Of a DNA stretch of 64,000 nt, positions 12,598 through 63,978 are shown piece by piece. The stretch spans positions 82,078 to 146,077 of the forward strand of contig CAMYLV010000013.1 of the NCBI GenBank assembly GCA_947259495.1. The letters run 5' to 3'. The DNA comes from an uncultured Desulfobacterales bacterium (lineage in GTDB: Bacteria; Desulfobacterota; Desulfobacteria; Desulfobacterales; JAHEIW01). Below the pieces are notes generated by a model, which saw only the letters and a program-made list of their open reading frames with translations, was not told the DNA's origin and did not search any database. Made by a program: the position numbers and the translations under genes. Numbering within the stretch: the stretch's first letter is position 1; the number at the start of each line of letters is the position of its first letter.

Positions 12598-12647
12598 GCT
12601 GCATTACACCCCTAAAGGTTAAAATAGGAACAGGCAGGCTGTAATTA

Positions 12648-12751
12648 GACCGCTTTCCATAATTGTGTTCCGATTCACGGAATTGCGGCATGAGTGGTTG
12701 TAGAAATAAACGTTTTAATATCGGAACGTTTTTTTGACAACCACTATAAAA
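12648..12751 (+). repeat. Miniature hairpin repeat, copy A
   Basis: One of six ~105-base copies in this window. The element starts ACCGCTTTCCATAA, has a variable middle with GGAATTG, then a long hairpin formed by AGTGGTTGT...AACG and CGTTTTTTT...ACAACCACT, ending in CTATA. This copy lies 50 bases after the sodA stop codon. Confidence 0.85.
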
Positions 12752-16368: not shown

Positions 16369-16473
16369 TATAGTGGTTGTCAAAAAAACGTTCCGTCATT
16401 CCAACGTTTTTTTCTACAACCACTTATACCCCAATTCCGTATTTCGAAATATTAATATGGAAAGCGGTATAAA
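16369..16473 (-). repeat. Miniature hairpin repeat, copy B
   Basis: A minus-orientation copy of the ~105-base element, beginning on this strand with TATAGTGGTTGTC and ending in GGAAAGCGGTATAAAA. It lies between the E2 stop codon and the E3 start codon. Confidence 0.85.
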
Positions 16474-16529
16474 ATCTGTTGCTGTCCAAAATGAGGGCTT
16501 TTTGCCAATGTATCGATAATTGAGGATTA

Positions 16530-16671
16530 GTTTGTGTTTAGAAATGAGGATTTTTTTTATTGTGCAAGGCCGCACAAGGATTTTAGCCTTCGGCGTACTT
16601 GAAGTACATTGAAGGCTGAAATCCGCGGAGAACGCCGCACAACGTAAAAAAGACCATTTCTAAACGCAAAC
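16530..16671 (-). other. Stop-codon-anchored structured element, type 1 (E2 gene)
   Basis: A 142-base nested palindrome beginning two bases after the E2 stop codon. The outer stem pairs GTTTGCGTTTAGAAATG with CATTTCTAAACACAAAC, the middle stem TTGTGC with GCACAA, and the inner stem AGCCTTC with GAAGGCT. Unpaired blocks TTCTCCGCGGATTTC, AAAATCCTTGTGCGG and GTACGCC are kept in the second copy at 63086-63232 while all three stems differ in sequence there but still pair. This suggests selection on RNA or DNA structure. Confidence 0.8.
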
Positions 16672-16673
16672 TA

Positions 16674-17957
16674 TTAGATCATGGAGATAAGAAGTTCATC
16701 CGGATCTTCCAGGGCTTCGATAACCATTTTCAAGAATTTAATGGCATCGGCACCGTCCAACACACGGTGATCGATGCAAAGCACGATCGGCATGATCAGA
16801 CGCGCGGCAATTTCATGCTCGCCGTTGTCTTTATCAATGACAGCCGGTTGCAGGCGCCCCTGGCCCATTCCCAGGATGGCCACCTCGGGAAAATTGATAA
16901 TCGGCGCGAAATATCCCCCGCCCATGGCACCGGCATTGGTGATTGTAAATGTTCCGCCCTGCAACTCCTCCAGCGAAACCTTACGGGACCGAGTCCGCTG
17001 GACCAGATCGTGCAATTCGATGGCAAGCTCTTTGATGCTTTTGCGGTCAACATCGCGAACCACCGGCACAATCAAACCATTGTCAGTGTTCACCGCAACG
17101 CCGATATGAAAGTAATTCTTAAGGACGATTTCGCCGGCGGCAACATCAAGGGCTGCATTAAATTGCGGATAGGTCTTAAGCGCGGTGGCAACCGCCTTTA
17201 AGGCAAATACCGTCATCGTCAATCGACCGCCCTCAGCCTCGATGTCGACCTTGTGTTTCTGGCGAAAAGCTTCCAGCTTGGTGATGTCGACCTCATCCTG
17301 ACTGGTCACATGGGGTATTTGAGTCCAGGCAATAACCATCTGTTTGGCGGTTGCCCGACGAATGGAGCGAAATGGCACCCTTTTGACAGGGCCCCAGCGG
17401 GAAAAATCGGGCAGTGTTGGTGATGGAATAATGACCTCAGCCTCCGGGATCGCATCAGGAACAGCCGGCGGTCCGACCGTTTCCGGGCCCGTTTCGGCAA
17501 AGGCGCGAACATCATCAGCTGTGACCAGACCGCTGGGACCGGTTGGCGTGAGGCGGTGAAGATCAACGCCCAATTCCCGTGCCAGGCGGCGGGTTGCCGG
17601 TGACGCCGGCACCGGCCCTTTTCTTTTGGCGGTCTCCGCAACGGTTACCTCTGCTTCGGCTAAAGTGGCCTCTGCGGGCGCTTCTACCGGTTTTTCAGTC
17701 TCAACCCCATCCGCTGCTTCGCCGTTGCTAAAGGTTATCATCACATCCCCGACCTTTACCGTATCTCCGGCTTTTACCAGCACCTCGGCCACTGTTCCGG
17801 TAAACGGTGACGGAATTTCCACCGCGGCTTTATCGGTCTCGACCTCTAGTATGATATCGTCTTCTTTAACCTCCTGACCCACAGAGACATGCACGGCAAG
17901 CACCTCTCCCTCATGAACGCCTTCGCCTAGATCCGGTAATTTAAATGCTCTGGCCAT
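16674..17957 (-). CDS. pdhC: Dihydrolipoamide acyltransferase (E2)
   Basis: A 427-residue E2. Residues 1-80 form a lipoyl domain with the modified lysine in EVETDKAAVE. A Pro/Ala/Glu-rich linker leads to a peripheral subunit-binding domain (ATRRLARELGVDLHRL, near residue 130), a second linker, and the acyltransferase domain ending in IDHRVLDGADA with the catalytic His. It moves the acyl group from E1 to CoA. There is a single lipoyl domain, as in many bacterial pyruvate or branched-chain complexes. ATG 17957 follows GGGAGGAAAC. It is separated from E1b by about 210 bases containing TCCTCTG repeats. Confidence 0.92.
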   Translation of the reverse strand: MARAFKLPDLGEGVHEGEVLAVHVSVGQEVKEDDIILEVETDKAAVEIPSPFTGTVAEVLVKAGDTVKVGDVMITFSNGEAADGVETEKPVEAPAEATLAEAEVTVAETAKRKGPVPASPATRRLARELGVDLHRLTPTGPSGLVTADDVRAFAETGPETVGPPAVPDAIPEAEVIIPSPTLPDFSRWGPVKRVPFRSIRRATAKQMVIAWTQIPHVTSQDEVDITKLEAFRQKHKVDIEAEGGRLTMTVFALKAVATALKTYPQFNAALDVAAGEIVLKNYFHIGVAVNTDNGLIVPVVRDVDRKSIKELAIELHDLVQRTRSRKVSLEELQGGTFTITNAGAMGGGYFAPIINFPEVAILGMGQGRLQPAVIDKDNGEHEIAARLIMPIVLCIDHRVLDGADAIKFLKMVIEALEDPDELLISMI

Positions 17958-20251: not shown

Positions 20252-20480
20252 CACATATCTCCTTGCGTATATCGCTTGTAAAATACTGGGATACCCTATC
20301 TGGTAACGAATTTTTGCTTTACTTCCGCCGATTAAATTTATCACGCTAATAATGATGCGGATTTTTGCTTAGTCAAGCGTCGAAAGCGATAAGCCATAGA
20401 ATATAGTAGATATATTTTCAATAATGGCGACGATAAACGTTGAATACAGCAAAGTACGCTATTCAAACGACTTCCAGAAT

Positions 20481-20586
20481 TTATACCGCTTTTCATAATA
20501 ATGTTCCCAATTACGGAATTGGGGTATAAGTGGTTGTAGAAAAAACGTTGGCATAACGGAACGTTTTTTTGACAACCACTATAAAA
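20481..20586 (+). repeat. Miniature hairpin repeat, copy C
   Basis: A plus-orientation copy, TTATACCGCTTTTCATAA through GACAACCACTATAAAA. It sits in the 574-base region upstream of the dehydrogenase operon, where no gene was found. Confidence 0.85.
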
Positions 20587-27478: not shown

Positions 27479-27883
27479 ATGGGATTTCAGGAAATTGAAC
27501 ATACAGCAGACCGCGCCTTGAAAATATTTGGCGGGAACCTCAAAGAGCTGTTCATCAGTGCTGCCGAAGGGATGACGTCTCTGATGGTCGCGGATATGTC
27601 TGGCGTTTCGGGGGAAATCGAAAAGACCATTGAAATGGATGCCATCGATACAGAAAGCCTTCTGGTGGAATGGCTGAGCGAGCTGGCTTATTGGGCTGAA
27701 GCTGAAATGCTGATTTTTAAAACATTCAGGATTCAAAACATAACCGTGGACCATCTTGCAGCCAGCGTCATTGGTGGAAAATTGCCCGCACTTGAAAAGC
27801 ATATAAAGGCGGTGACCTATCACAATCTCAAGATTATAAAGTCCCGCCGGGGATTGGAAGCGACTATCGTCTTTGATGTCTAA
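27479..27883 (+). CDS. Archease
   Basis: A 134-residue archease with the metal-binding start GFQEIEHTADRALKIFG and the matching C-terminal acidic end TIVFDV. Archease activates the RNA ligase RtcB by helping transfer GMP to it and by widening its nucleotide range. No clear ribosome site precedes the ATG. The rtcB gene follows on the same strand after 213 bases, the expected partner. The gap holds a 30-base perfect inverted repeat whose first arm begins directly after the stop codon. Confidence 0.9.
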   Translation: MGFQEIEHTADRALKIFGGNLKELFISAAEGMTSLMVADMSGVSGEIEKTIEMDAIDTESLLVEWLSELAYWAEAEMLIFKTFRIQNITVDHLAASVIGGKLPALEKHIKAVTYHNLKIIKSRRGLEATIVFDV

Positions 27884-28031
27884 TACCTGAATCTTGCATG
27901 AAAATTAATGCGAAGCTGGGATTACATTTAAAGACAGCGCATTAAAATTAAAGACCTACAACAAAATATCTGTTGGGTAAAAATGGATGAAAATCATTTT
28001 ATCGCATTAATTTTCATGCAAGATTCAGGTA
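27884..28031. repeat. 148-base palindrome with 30-base perfect inverted repeats
   Basis: Arm 27884-27913 begins TACCTGAATCTTGCATG and arm 28002-28031 is its exact reverse complement over 30 bases, with an 88-base spacer. It begins at the base after the archease stop codon and ends 65 bases before rtcB. Shorter relatives occur at 31249-31275 and 45386-45415. Confidence 0.92.
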
Positions 28032-28096
28032 ATATCTTTGTTGAGCGTTTCAAATTAAAAATAAGGTCCGCGATCTTTTGAATCAAGGGGGATAAA

Positions 28097-31236: not shown

Positions 31237-31248
31237 ATCAATACTTCT

Positions 31249-31275
31249 CATTAATTTTCATGCAAGATTCAGGTA
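31249..31275. repeat. Half-copy of the TACCTGAATC inverted repeat
   Basis: CATTAATTTTCATGC followed by AAGATTCAGGTA matches 27 bases of the 30-base arm found between archease and rtcB. No second arm is present. It covers the possible upstream start codon of the TlpA-type gene. Confidence 0.8.
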
Positions 31276-31376
31276 TTAAGTTGTTCATGCAACCACAGCC
31301 ATGCGCAGCTGATACGATCGTTTTGAATTAAAGACCTGGTCAGGATATACGGTGACCGTATTCTTTGTCAAGACGC

Positions 31377-34022: not shown

Positions 34023-34238
34023 AATACGTTTCTCCTTCATCAATTTGAATTCAGAATATTCCAATTTCATCCCGCATAGAAAACCGTGTCCCGTTCAGCG
34101 ATGGGCAAGCGCAGGGATTACTGTAAATGGGCTTTGGCGTGGTCTTTTTGTTTGTTTTTCCCGGTGAAGAACAAGATAACGATTCGAGCTTCAATTATCC
34201 TGTCCACAATCACCGGATAAATGAACCCGGCCATACGT

Positions 34239-34374
34239 TTATACCGCTTTCCATAATAGTGTTCCGATATATGGAATTGAGGCATAAGTGGTTGTAGAAA
34301 AAAACGTTGGAATACCGAAACGTTTTTTGACAACCACTATATACCGCTTTCCATAATAGTGTTCCGATATTTGG
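34239..34374 (+). repeat. Miniature hairpin repeat, copy D plus partial tandem copy
   Basis: A full plus-orientation copy spans 34239-34341. It is directly followed by a second left end, ATACCGCTTTCCATAATAG, which stops at about 34374 (GATATTTGG). This end-to-end partial duplication marks the element boundary. It lies between the DUF2318 gene and the small exported protein. Confidence 0.87.
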
Positions 34375-38981: not shown

Positions 38982-39557
38982 ATGGGAACGCTAAAGGGGA
39001 CCCAAACCGAAAAGAACATTCTAACCGCCTTTGCCGGCGAATCTCAGGCCCGCAACCGTTATACGTATTTTGCCAGTCAGGCCAAAAAAGACGGCTATGT
39101 GCAAATTTCTGAAATTTTTACAGAGACCGCCAATCAGGAAAAAGAACACGCTAAAAGATTGTTCAAACTATTGGAAGGTGGTGAAGTTGAAGTCGCCGCA
39201 GCCTTTCCGGCCGGTGTCATCGGTACCACACTGGACAATTTGAAAGAAGCCGCCGGTGGCGAAAATTATGAATATACCGAAATGTACCCCGGATTCGCAA
39301 ATATTGCCAGCGAAGAAGGATTTGAAAAAATCGCCGAGATCTTTAAAGCAATTGCCGTGGCTGAAAAACAACATGAAAAACGGTATTTAGCACTTGCTGT
39401 CAACATAGAAAAAGGTATCGTTTTTAAAAGGGAAAAATCGGTGATCTGGTGTTGCCGCAATTGCGGATATTTGCATGAAGGCAACGATGCGCCGGAAGAA
39501 TGTCCGGCGTGTGCACATCCTACTGCGCATTTCGAATTGCTCGGTGAAAACTACTAA
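38982..39557 (+). CDS. rbr: Rubrerythrin
   Basis: A 191-residue rubrerythrin, a cytoplasmic peroxide reductase of anaerobes. The diiron bundle is shown by [38 protein letters not shown] and [10 protein letters not shown]. The C-terminal rubredoxin-like Fe site is in [12 protein letters not shown] and ECPACAHP. Electrons probably come from one of the rubredoxins encoded a few kilobases downstream. GGAGGAAC precedes the ATG. A structured element starts exactly at its stop codon. Confidence 0.96.
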
Positions 39558-39700
39558 AACTTGCATCTAAGACTCATCTATTGTCCGCTGGCTGTGTTAT
39601 AAACCGTTTTAAAATACTCGCGTACTACCGTGTACGCTCCGCTTTCAAAACGGTTTACGCCGTGCCAGCGAACAAAATCTAAGCCTTATATGCAAGTTTA
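39557..39700 (+). other. Stop-codon-anchored structured element, type 2 (rubrerythrin)
   Basis: A nested palindrome starting at the last base of the rubrerythrin stop codon. The outer pair is AAACTTGCAT/ATGCAAGTTT, the middle CGCTGGC/GCCAGCG, the inner AAACCGTTTT/AAAACGGTTT. Unpaired GCTGTGTTATA, AATACTCGC and ACGCC are shared with the copy at 60385-60526, in which the middle and inner stems are changed but still pair. Confidence 0.8.
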
Positions 39701-57096: not shown

Positions 57097-57138
57097 TAAA
57101 AATCTTCGGCTGCCTGAATTTTACCGAAATAGGACATT

Positions 57139-57242
57139 TTCCGTTTTCCATCATAATGTTCCGGAATACGAAAGTGCGGCTTAAGGAGTTGTAGGAAAAA
57201 ACGTTTGAATACAGCAACGCTTTTTTTGACAACCCCTATATA
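57139..57242 (+). repeat. Miniature hairpin repeat, copy E (divergent)
   Basis: A plus-orientation copy with more changes: CCGTTTTCCATCATAATG at the left and GACAACCCCTATATA at the right. The hairpin arm reads AAGGAGTTGT, changed with its partner ACAACCCCT at some but not all pairs. Copy F lies 650 bases away in opposite orientation. Confidence 0.8.
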
Positions 57243-57892: not shown

Positions 57893-57996
57893 TTTATAAT
57901 GGTTGTTAAAAAACCGTTCCGGCATTTTAACGCTTTTTTCTACAACCACTTATGCCGCACTTCCTTATTTCAGAACATTATGATGGAATACGGTAT
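57893..57996 (-). repeat. Miniature hairpin repeat, copy F
   Basis: A minus-orientation copy beginning TTATAATGGTTGTTAAAAAA on the plus strand and ending in GATGGAATACGGTATA. It lies just upstream of the hypothetical gene and mirrors copy E. The rest of 57868-58193 shows no gene. Confidence 0.82.
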
Positions 57997-58193
57997 ATCC
58001 CAAAGCGGTACCATTTACCTGCAACCGTTTCCATCTGACCGCTTAGCATCTTAGACCTTCCAGATTGTTTTGTCCAGAGCCTGGTAGGTTTTTGAAACCT
58101 GAGTCGCTGCACCGGTGTCTTTCCACCTAAGCCGCCGCGCAGCAGGTAATTTCACAGGCACAAAATCTACTTCCAACCTAACTAAAATTTCAA

Positions 58194-60207: not shown

Positions 60208-60384
60208 AAGGCCCTCGATATGTCATCAACAAATAAAAGTTGAATGAGCATAGAAAACAGAATAATAGAACTAGCCGATTTGTAACAATTTGATATGGGA
60301 ACACGTTGTGGGTGTGAGTTTATGCTCGATACTTCTTACTTCATTTCTTTTACTTTTTTCACGGTGTTATTAAAACCAAACATA

Positions 60385-60526
60385 GAAGCGGTTTCATAGG
60401 TTTAGATAATGTTCGATAGCAAGGCGTAAATCGATTCAATAACGGAGAATACACGTCAGTATGCGAGTATTTTGAATCGATTTATAACACAGCTATCGGG
60501 CATTAGATGGCCGATGAAAACGCTTC
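60385..60526 (-). other. Stop-codon-anchored structured element, type 2 (TraB/GumN gene)
   Basis: On the minus strand it starts right after the stop codon of the TraB/GumN gene. The outer pair is GAAGCG..TTTCAT/ATGAAA..CGCTTC, the middle CGATAGC/GCTATCG, the inner AAATCGATTC/GAATCGATTT. The stretches GCTGTGTTATAAA, AAAATACTCGC and TTTACGCC equal those after rubrerythrin, while both stems differ by compensating changes. The rest of 60208-60384 shows no gene. Confidence 0.8.
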
Positions 60527-61434
60527 TATTGTTGTTTAACCTCATGGCCATTCTTCCTCAACAAATCGACGACACTTTCGGGGCCAACCAAATGGCCCGC
60601 ACCCACCACAAAAAAAACATTTTTATTTTTGCGCATCGCGTCTTCAACTTTCTTAACCCATTTTATATTGCGCTGAATCAGCAGACGATTATTTAGATCC
60701 GGGTAATCTTTAAAGCTCTTGTGTAACAGTTTGTGCAGTTTATCGGCATTGCCGGATTTCCAATTTTTTACCAGGTCAGCGGCCAGTTCGCTGACCAATT
60801 CCAGATCTTTTAAGGTCTGACTTAAAAAGTCGTTTTGATCCTTCTCGGCCATGTTGCCCAGCAGGCTTATCTGATACTCCGGAGGTTCTAAAAACCCAAT
60901 TTCTTTGCCACCGCTTTGGGCCTTGTTAAAAAAGTAAACATCAATCCCATATTGGGGGTTGTAACCCAGACGCTGCAATTCCAATGTTGTCAGGGTGAGT
61001 GCTACAAACCAGGGTTTAAATCGTGAAAATGCCTGCAGGGGCAGCCCGAGTGCGCTCATTTTTTTCTCGAGCTGCTGACGCGTAACGCCCGCAAGGTTCT
61101 GAAACAGGGTCTGCCCGTCCGGATACATCCCTAGCTCCAGCATTTTGGCCTGCATGGCCGGATCTTGCATGGCTGCAATATCGGTTTCAAAAATGATACG
61201 CTGGCTGTCGGCATAAGCTCTTTCGATTGCGGCGGCCAACGGATAAGTTTCCTGCTTGAGGACATGCAGAGAGCCCAACAAATAAATTTTGTTCGATTGG
61301 CTTTGAATCGACCATAGACAATTTTTACTGGCCTGCTGGACGGCGACTGTCTTCGCCGGCAAGAGCGTTGTCAGCAGAAAAATAACAAATAAAACAAAAC
61401 TTAATGCATATTTAAAAAAATGTCGTTCTGGCAT
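60526..61434 (-). CDS. TraB/GumN-family exported protein
   Basis: About 302 residues. A signal peptide (YALSFVLFVIFLLTTLLPA) precedes a TraB/GumN domain with IYLLGSLHVLKQETYPL at the start and FFVVGAGHLVGPESVV at the end, the two GxxH signatures of this Tiki-like metalloprotease-related family. The true activity in bacteria is unproven. The start at 61434 follows GGAAAGGAATC. The gene lies 41 bases downstream of the YqeY gene on the same strand. Confidence 0.87.
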   Translation of the reverse strand: MPERHFFKYALSFVLFVIFLLTTLLPAKTVAVQQASKNCLWSIQSQSNKIYLLGSLHVLKQETYPLAAAIERAYADSQRIIFETDIAAMQDPAMQAKMLELGMYPDGQTLFQNLAGVTRQQLEKKMSALGLPLQAFSRFKPWFVALTLTTLELQRLGYNPQYGIDVYFFNKAQSGGKEIGFLEPPEYQISLLGNMAEKDQNDFLSQTLKDLELVSELAADLVKNWKSGNADKLHKLLHKSFKDYPDLNNRLLIQRNIKWVKKVEDAMRKNKNVFFVVGAGHLVGPESVVDLLRKNGHEVKQQ

Positions 61435-61475
61435 GCAGATTCCTTTCCGAAACGGATCACACCTTTCAGGTGTTT

Positions 61476-61970
61476 TTATTGCCATTTCTGCAGGATCTCA
61501 TTGACCATCTTGCCATCCGCCTGCTTGCCGAATTGCTTCATGATGGCACCCATGGCCTGCATTTTGTTTTTGTATTCGGAGAAATCGATGTTTTCCTTGA
61601 TCCAGGCAATGATCTCTTCGCGGCCGGCCATACGGGGCAAATACAATTGAAGAATACTTAGATATTCGGAAGATTCTTCCTTTTTAGCCACCAACACCAT
61701 TCGTTCGGATTTGGCCAACCCCTGGATGATCCCGACGATGTCATCGTTGGTAATCTCTGCACTGGTTTTGAGCCGGGTGGATTTTTTCCCGCTTTCCAGA
61801 GTGATGGGTACCGTCAGTCTCGGAAATTCAGCCATAATTTGCCGGATAGCGCTGCGTGCGGCCACATCCTTTTTCAACATGGCCTGCTTAAGGTCGGTTT
61901 TGAGTTTAACCAGCAAAGGCATGTCCATATCCGCATTCCATCCGTATGTTTGGGTTTGGGTCTCACTCAT
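61476..61970 (-). CDS. GatB/YqeY domain protein
   Basis: A 164-residue YqeY-type protein, all helical. KLKTDLKQAMLKKDVAARSAIR is the N-terminal signature, LQLYLPRMAGREEI the middle, and MGAIMKQFGKQADGKMVNEIL the C-terminal one. It resembles the tRNA-contacting tail domain of GatB, and the stand-alone form is thought to work in tRNA metabolism, but the role is not settled. GGAGAGGC precedes the start. Confidence 0.88.
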   Translation of the reverse strand: MSETQTQTYGWNADMDMPLLVKLKTDLKQAMLKKDVAARSAIRQIMAEFPRLTVPITLESGKKSTRLKTSAEITNDDIVGIIQGLAKSERMVLVAKKEESSEYLSILQLYLPRMAGREEIIAWIKENIDFSEYKNKMQAMGAIMKQFGKQADGKMVNEILQKWQ

Positions 61971-63085: not shown

Positions 63086-63232
63086 GTTTCCATTTCAGAG
63101 ATGAGAGATTTTTTTCGATGAGCTAGACCGCACAAGGATTTTGGATTTTGGCGTACTGGGTCGTACGTCAAAATCCAGAAATCCGCGGAGAACACAGCTC
63201 ATCGGAAAAAGATCCATTTCTGAAATGGAAAC
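63086..63232 (-). other. Stop-codon-anchored structured element, type 1 (SDR gene)
   Basis: On the minus strand it starts at the last base of the SDR stop codon. The outer pair is GTTTCCATTTCAGA/TCTGAAATGGAAAC, the middle CGATGAGCT/AGCTCATCG, the inner TGGATTTTG/CAAAATCCA. TTCTCCGCGGATTTC, GTACGCC and AAAATCCTTGTGCGG are the same as in the copy after E2. Confidence 0.82.
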
Positions 63233-63978
63233 TAGACGTAGCCGCCGTTAACATGGATCGACTGCCCCGTAATCCATCTGGCTGCTTCACTTGCCAGAAA
63301 CGCCACGGCGTCCGCTATATCCTGCACCTGCCCGATGCGGCCCAGAGCGGCCATTTGAGCCATCTGTTGAATCTGTTCTTCTGATTTGCCATCACGGAAA
63401 AGATCGGTATCCACCGGCCCCGGAGAAACTGCGTTAACGGTGATATTCCGCCCGCCCAGTTCCTTTGCCAGCGCCCGGGTGATCTGATCGACGGCTCCTT
63501 TGCTGGCGGCATAAATGGAATAGCCGGGCAACATCATGCGCGTCACGGCTGATGAAACATTGATGATCTTTCCACCATCGGAAAGCCGGCGGGCTGCTTG
63601 TTGACAGGCAAAAAATGTTCCCTTCACATTGATGGCAAACAGCCGGTCAAATTCTGCTTCTTTGATGTCGGCAACATTTTTGCTGATGCGGATACCGGCG
63701 TTGTTTATTAAAACATCAAGCCGGCCAAAGTGTTCGATTGTCTGATCGAAAAGCCCTTGAATGTCTTCAAGCTTTGAGACATCCCCTTGCAGGGCGATGG
63801 CCGCACCGCCGGCGGTCTCAATGCCCGCAACAACTTCTCGAGCGCTATTTGAGTTGTTGACATAGTTGATTGCAACGGAAGCACCCTCGCGGCTCAATCG
63901 TTCGGCCATCGCGCGCCCGATTCCCCGGGATGATCCGGTCACCAGCGCAATTTTGCCGGACAGATTTTTGGGGCTCAT
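63232..63978 (-). CDS. Short-chain dehydrogenase (3-oxoacyl-ACP reductase-like)
   Basis: A 248-residue SDR. ALVTGSSRGIGRAMAERL is the NAD(P)-binding loop, LINNAGI the following turn, and the catalytic Ser-Tyr-Lys is in VSSAVTRMMLPGYSIYAASKG. The C-terminal WITGQSIHVNGGYV is usual for FabG-like reductases. The Arg/Ser after the first glycine loop suggests NADPH. The substrate may be an acyl carrier protein ketone or another small ketone. AAAAGGAGAACC precedes the ATG at the right window edge. Confidence 0.9.
   Translation of the reverse strand: MSPKNLSGKIALVTGSSRGIGRAMAERLSREGASVAINYVNNSNSAREVVAGIETAGGAAIALQGDVSKLEDIQGLFDQTIEHFGRLDVLINNAGIRISKNVADIKEAEFDRLFAINVKGTFFACQQAARRLSDGGKIINVSSAVTRMMLPGYSIYAASKGAVDQITRALAKELGGRNITVNAVSPGPVDTDLFRDGKSEEQIQQMAQMAALGRIGQVQDIADAVAFLASEAARWITGQSIHVNGGYV

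Follow-up and report, generated by a model that had tools for sequence, protein, structure and literature searches.

Integron attC sites lie behind stop codons, fold on the bottom strand and have variable stems; group IIC introns and other target-primed retroelements insert near gene ends and have one precise end; and the REP/BIME sequences, with their RAYT (Y1) transposases, are extragenic hairpins that follow a single-strand logic. To our knowledge, no mobile element is known that locates the end of an open reading frame (ORF) exactly, irrespective of its sequence. The elements described here lie behind stop codons, fold on the bottom strand and have variable stems, as attC sites do; unlike attC sites they have a conserved centre and form no cassette arrays, and G000, G003 and G004 (see below) have no integron integrase over the cut-off. 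As with group IIC introns and target-primed retroelements, they are found near gene ends and have one precise end; unlike group IIC introns, they occur in seven genomes without an RVT_1 match, and the window had no Rfam match at gathering score. They share with REP/BIME sequences the extragenic hairpin and the single-strand logic (in part, PMC2817692 and PMC3733652), whereas REPs measure 20–40 bp (PMC3733652) and, unlike in the REP/RAYT pairing, Y1_Tnp does not track the present elements. Finally, PMC2229807 describes ERIC/IRU/RU-1, RUP and Correia/NEMIS as dispersed stable stem-loops of ~100–200 nt, mostly with TA termini, which is also how many type 2 copies end; unlike ERIC, RUP and Correia, the present elements anchor exactly to native stop codons in one orientation, have a core common to distant classes, and fold on the strand opposite the gene. 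A literature search that covered few subscription papers returned no description of stop-anchored elements of such kind.

The window, that is, the whole 64,000-nt stretch of DNA that we analysed, comes from the 4.4-Mb genome of an uncultured Desulfobacterales bacterium (G000; G001–G005 are five relatives, and L-numbers are locus labels). It contains two type 2 elements. Copy A (39557..39699, plus strand; outer stem pairing 39557 with 39699) is flush with the TAA stop codon (39555–39557) of a rubrerythrin gene (38982..39557, plus strand) and carries a conserved apical core, CTCGCGTACTNNCGTGTACGCTCC, at 39617..39640 (plus strand). Copy B (60384..60527, minus strand; outer stem pairing 60527 with ~60384) is flush with the TAG stop codon (60528–60526) of a TraB/PrgY/gumN gene (60526..61485, minus strand; profile positions 2–263 of 263). 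A preliminary description of this DNA had claimed such a stop-flush pair, together with specific middle and inner stems and kept blocks; both copies do begin on a stop codon, and the stems and blocks are found in each. Its further statement that four of four window copies sit at stop codons is right, since the two type 1 elements in the window are also stop-flush: one (16528..16673, minus strand) lies behind a 2-oxoacid dehydrogenase acyltransferase gene with its stop at 16676–16674, and the other (63086..63231, minus strand) behind an SDR gene with its stop at 63234–63232. Copies A and B form a 112-nt inverted pair with 79% complementarity, and the core pattern, with up to 3 mismatches allowed, matches at 2 places in the window, where 0.01 matches are expected. 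Folded in the gene sense, copy A reaches −55.9 kcal/mol (z −8.6) and copy B −50.3 kcal/mol (z −7.0), with none of 200 shuffles as low in either case. Searches of Rfam at E up to 5 returned nothing relevant for copy A, the only matches being two microRNA models at chance level, and copy A had no match in the plasmid and phage collections that were queried.

The window also holds other repeats. A dispersed ~104-nt repeat (TATACCGCTTTCCAT...TGACAACCACTATA) is present in six copies and a partial one (12644–12747, 20480–20583, 34238–34374 and 57135–57238 on the plus strand; 16369–16471 and 57895–57997 on the minus strand); a distance of 57 nt separates one of these copies from the type 1 element at 16528. 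A short repeat with CTGAATCTTGCATGAAAATTAATGCG occurs in both orientations at 27881–27915, 28002–28034 and 31244–31278, and its words recur in G002, where they follow a truncated type 1 copy (L267).

In the source genome, BLAST returned 34 rows for copy A and 30 rows for a type 1 copy; rows L024 and L049 (the query place, other strand) and L054 (the centre of the L033 copy, other strand) were dropped, and the 29 type 2 copies on the resulting list were aligned (alignment A2 is without L016, L020, L027 and L029, and alignment A3 is without these and L018 and L028). A covariance model, for which 23 type 2 copies were taken in antisense orientation, yielded 85 rows, which, after 24 opposite-strand doubles are subtracted, represent 61 places; copy A (C13:121630–121780) scored 156.9 bits and copy B (C13:142458–142607) 139.5 bits, each with a stop offset of +2. 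Most of the 61 places are full length, at ~150 nt, with an outer stem that pairs one end with the other. At 31 of the 61 places (TAA 22, TAG 9) an upstream ORF with 60 or more codons had its stop codon within −6 to +6 nt of the element, whereas a flush ORF stop on the far side was found at 2 of 61. At the other places the ORF reads 7–25 nt into the element (4/61), is separated from it by a gap (22/61), or is absent (4/61). Of 18 non-flush places looked at individually, three are flush once the true left end is taken, namely the composites L016 and L020, whose left arm carries an insert, and L367; L340 is at a contig end, with an open frame running into its TAG; L346 has CAG where other copies have TAG; L370 has a TAA one base ahead of the element; and the rest are still non-flush or undecided. 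Thus the distances to stop codons, whether taken with the model in the source genome or in samples of other genomes, are not random: where an upstream gene is clear, the gene-proximal end of most copies lies on or directly behind the native stop, and the orientation to that gene is fixed. The copies are short, non-coding, present many times and bounded by terminal inverted repeats, as in bacterial MITEs, and they are scattered over contigs rather than collected in cassette arrays. They are stop-anchored elements of a bacterial MITE-like kind, and types 1, 2 and further subtypes are best read as one superfamily of non-autonomous, imperfectly palindromic, MITE-like elements of ~145–155 nt.

Judged by profile matches, the stops ahead of the elements are native where testable. 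Of ten upstream proteins scanned, eight extend to the last residues of a curated model, although several of these matches score below the model's naming cut-off (GDH, 445/445; 3-hydroxybutyryl-CoA dehydrogenase, 282/283; rubrerythrin, 194/194; LivF, 237/237; PurH-like, 510/510; PA0069 radical SAM, 348/348; LptD, 778/783; DsrO-like, 234/235); of the others, L010 has no model and L025 partial models only. The rubrerythrin orthologue in G001 matches the NCBIfam rubrerythrin model over positions 1–194 of 194.

Beyond the source genome, the core pattern matched at least 108 stretches in the GTDB collection; among the matches listed were Deltaproteobacteria and Desulfobacterales MAGs, Lysobacterales, Rhodanobacter, other Gammaproteobacteria and Proteobacteria MAGs, and one contig of a Nitrospiria MAG, the only match in that genome. 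The distribution is patchy, with the core present in 4/4 genomes of the bacterium's own genus, 2/2 other members of the family and 1/52 other members of the order; in a phylum sample of 297 genomes it occurred in G000 only, and viral contigs gave no match. Among 188 distinct copies, 169 have an upstream ORF, and in 91 of these the stop lies 57–61 nt from the core; for 110 named copies the far side has no comparable distance peak. A distance of 54–61 nt was found in 77/125 AT-richer and 20/44 GC-rich copies with an ORF, and in 10 further GC-rich copies the stop is 43–53 nt away, inside the element.

The preliminary description had the elements structured, stop-anchored, fixed in their orientation to the gene, built of compensated stems and perhaps related by descent, all of which stood; its assignment of the fold to the gene-sense strand did not. 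An alignment of 25 copies in the gene sense folds at −33.9 kcal/mol with 41 pairs, 31 of them with a two-sided pair-keeping change, whereas an antisense alignment of 23 copies folds at −65.3 kcal/mol with 53 pairs, 36 of them so supported and many of them G–U; the stems thus carry compensated changes in either alignment. The antisense energy was the lower in 29/29 type 2 copies and 21/22 type 1 copies of the source genome (the exception, L053, has a long insert that was cut for folding), and across taxa in 135/140 AT-richer and 37/47 GC-rich copies. When 188 copies were aligned with G–T and A–C scored alike, the gene strand showed 463 A–C, 136 G–T, 302 C–T and 68 A–G mismatches; A–C exceeded G–T in 143 copies, G–T exceeded A–C in 18, and 27 were tied. 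On the structure predicted for the sense strand, too, A–C (36) exceeded G–T (13). Because A–C and C–T on the gene strand are G–U and G–A on the other strand, and because the antisense energy is lower, the constrained fold is opposite the gene, where it forms a conserved three-helix structure whose most conserved columns, including the invariant ones, are central and not at the base. Strand-biased mutation is a possible alternative source of the mismatch asymmetry.

Type 1 elements follow a similar rule of position: of 24 loci examined in the source genome, 23 have a core match (L052 does not), and 15 of the 23 have the core 39–43 nt downstream of the stop. That the two types descend from a common ancestor, as the preliminary description had hinted, is supported by comparison of their consensus sequences, because the two align in the same orientation with a score of 43, which none of 2000 mononucleotide shuffles reached (maximum 37), and have in common the blocks CGATG-GCTGTGTT and GCCTTGC-C-TCGAA; in the opposite orientation the score is 23. 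The two types are homologous.

Several observations bear on how copies are composed. At ~57.5–57.85 kb on contig C25 of the source genome, two convergent genes each have their own element at the end: one gene is followed by a type 1 copy (L047), the other by an intact further-subtype copy that is flush with a TAA; the match L057 is this separate further-subtype copy, distinct from L047. L047 and its orthologue in G002 (L278), both type 1, are near-identical in their outer parts and differ in their inner stems; the inner stem of L278 matches that of L043, which suggests an exchange of inner hairpins. A ~50-nt module (ACACCTTAAT...GATGTGAAATCCCGC or its reverse complement) is inserted in either arm in opposite orientations, namely in the left arm of type 2 copies L016, L020 and L027 and in the right arm of type 1 copies L039, L046 and L052; similar words occur in other flanks too.

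Comparison of orthologous stops, for which a joined query of 14 coding ends was searched in the five relatives, showed that the same stops in different species carry empty, truncated, retained or different-type copies. No visible element was found at L003, L004, L009, L014 and L041 in some relatives, with the stop at or near the same codon. At L004 the next gene starts within ~20 nt in G001 and G002. Whether or not the element is present there, the gene downstream looks homologous by eye; the operon is therefore kept. Remnants truncated at the 3′ side, in which the stop-proximal part is kept, occur at L009 in G003, L017 in G002, L032 in G002 and G004, L033 in G002, and L037 in G001, G004 and G005, and L013 in G003 has an internal deletion. 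The coding-end search favours such left-part remnants, so that the polarity is partly one of ascertainment; free of that bias are four half elements from a genome-wide type 1 search (L055, L056, L058 and L059), all of which are left, stop-proximal arms broken in, or just ahead of, the inner-stem arm. L056 and L059 lie directly behind an ORF stop, L058 has a stop 8 nt before the match, and L055 has none. Replication slippage at the bottom-strand hairpin could also be the source of this polarity. Right-sided remnants exist as well: at L330, found by the type 2 search and of the contrary polarity, a GDH gene is followed by a type 1 element, then by right-arm remnants of type 2 and then of type 1, an arrangement that would fit the replacement of older copies by newer ones inserted at the stop. 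Types also differ between genomes at a given stop. The L013 stop has type 2 in G000 and, in G001, type 1 followed by a leftover type 2 right arm; the L044 stop has type 1 in G000 and type 2 in G002; a further subtype occupies the same stop at L043 in G001 and G002 and at L047 in G001; and where L036 and L180 place type 1 and type 2 at the same stop, the length and C-terminus of the gene are equal. Empty orthologous sites are diverged or have extra sequence at the 3′ junction, and at L009 and L004 the filled interval holds additional sequence too. Low-complexity filler, such as GTGTCAGGTTTCAGG and GCGCATAGCGCATAG runs, was seen at L244, L245, L254, L279 and L282 and at the broken ends of L055, L056 and L059, that is, between genes as well as where truncated elements break off.

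The reading that we favour, at a probability of roughly 0.4, is a polar, stop-directed insertion of the folded bottom strand by a putative enzyme. In particular, we infer that the bottom strand, folded and most likely in the form of single-stranded DNA, would be the substrate of a putative trans-acting enzyme that joins it to a gene end in a polar way, such that the gene-side junction is precise and the distal junction ragged. The joining step would be directed to stop codons; the direction might come from the terminating ribosome, from a mark that gene ends carry, or from another source. Speaking for this reading are the stop anchoring, the native stops, the strand of the fold, the turnover at orthologous stops, the polarity of truncation and the persistence of copies. 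Speaking against it are the lack of a mover among the enzymes searched for, the 22 gapped and 4 ORF-less model places, which individual inspection explained in part, the right-arm remnants at L330, and the conservation of retained copies. A terminator, an attC site and a simple TA-target MITE each explain only parts of the findings.

A host device at gene ends, for whose sake copies are kept, would use the antisense strand (in the form of RNA or of DNA) to block or process antisense transcription or to mark where the gene ends. As the main driver it seems to us rather improbable, although the retained copies speak for it. Among 19 orthologous pairs, picked by hand from the ortholog clusters rather than taken from all of them, 10 have an element identity of at least 0.86; by comparison, 210 same-genome pairs reach at most 0.83, and random cross-genome pairs reach 0.86 in 1/300. 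In the 10 retained pairs the mean identity is 0.90–0.94 in the five full element bins (0.67 over the last few bases), 0.77–0.84 in the CDS bins and 0.58–0.68 in the first 160 nt downstream, a figure that is biased upward for the element because these pairs were chosen for an element identity of at least 0.86. When changes are counted from Watson–Crick pairs in either member and in both directions, the 10 retained pairs show 33 A–C against 9 G–T (p = 3e-4), 23 other single changes and 9 two-sided changes that keep the pair; all 19 pairs show 77 A–C against 28 G–T (p = 2e-6), 76 other single changes, 119 two-sided changes that keep the pair (each seen from both sides) and 15 other two-sided changes. 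We prefer this unbiased recount to one with pairs taken from the antisense fold, which favours antisense wobble (87 A–C and 11 G–T in the 19 pairs). Because identity is higher in the element than in the neighbouring CDS, and because the changes show the antisense-strand bias, persisting copies appear to be constrained in place, and such conservation points to a host role, which a purely selfish element would not need. A weak minus-strand terminator-like site in copy A would also fit a host device, but copy B has none, and the counts of terminator-like sites around copies A and B (2 vs 1.6 and 0 vs 0.9 in shuffles) are within noise; since type 1 elements, moreover, have no T-run directly after the outer stem, an intrinsic terminator was rejected. 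Also against a host device are the many empty orthologous sites and the genes that follow: of 97 flush copies, 59 have a same-strand gene next and 28 a convergent one, with 10 too short to tell.

An ordinary MITE of the RUP, ERIC or Correia kind, moved by an IS630-type transposase, with ends in TA and with TA within TAA or TAG as its target, is in our judgement unlikely. Many type 2 ends read TARAA...TTYTA; TGA is depleted at the flush stops of the AT-richer group (4/79 vs 108/328 in the background, p = 4e-8); and PMC2229807 describes TA termini and target duplications for most known bacterial MITEs. However, TA is frequent between genes, and in-frame stops would therefore be expected to make up a minority of the sites used. 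Type 1 3′ ends mostly lack TA, TGA is not depleted at the flush stops of the GC-rich group (14/18 vs 142/202 in the background), and no TA duplication is legible at the empty sites, whose divergence is high enough to hide one.

Less probable still is a retroelement, in which antisense RNA would be copied from its 3′ end with a primer that ends at the stop, with distal ends lost, as in target-primed reverse transcription. The antisense-strand fold with G–U pairs and the precise gene-proximal but truncated distal end are what it would predict, and RVT_1 matches are present in G000 and G002–G005. However, RVT_1 (E up to 0.001) was absent from G001, which has 40 core matches and for which alone a completeness figure, 97%, is available, and from all six named element-bearing genomes (25, 8, 1, 4, 43 and 10 core matches), which makes reverse transcriptase an unlikely mover, even if the RVT_1 model could miss its distant classes. 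Y1_Tnp occurs in 52 of 58 relatives, including G000–G005, against the core in only 7, and is thus not discriminating; it is present in four and absent from two of the six named element-bearing genomes. Integron integrase over the cut-off was found in G001, G002 and G005. None of the three enzymes, whether reverse transcriptase, Y1 transposase or integron integrase, follows the distribution of the elements, and all three were rejected as movers. Integron attC-like cassette sites that recombine as bottom strands would account for the stop-proximal position, fixed orientation, bottom-strand fold and variable compensated stems, but we consider them very improbable, given the three genomes without integrase over the cut-off, the scattered copies without cassette arrays, the operon at L004 kept with and without the element, and the conserved columns at the centre rather than at the base.

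If polar, stop-directed insertion of the bottom strand is the correct reading, then these sequences may, as we suggest tentatively, represent a class of mobile elements that is directed to the stops of intact genes via a folded bottom strand and that needs neither reverse transcriptase nor Y1 transposase nor integron integrase, the three movers tested; in effect they would be an integration system that reads gene ends, present in at least two bacterial phyla and in a third if the Nitrospiria contig is not misbinned. Two properties merit further study: the way in which stops are found, and the reason for the constrained fold lying opposite the gene. If insertion is stop-directed, some cue tied to translation termination or to gene ends must guide it, and the position behind genes would offer a natural and neutral site for insertion, of use in tagging. 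If the anchoring reflects selection instead, gene ends would carry a kind of functional element that has gone unrecognised, one that folds on the antisense strand.
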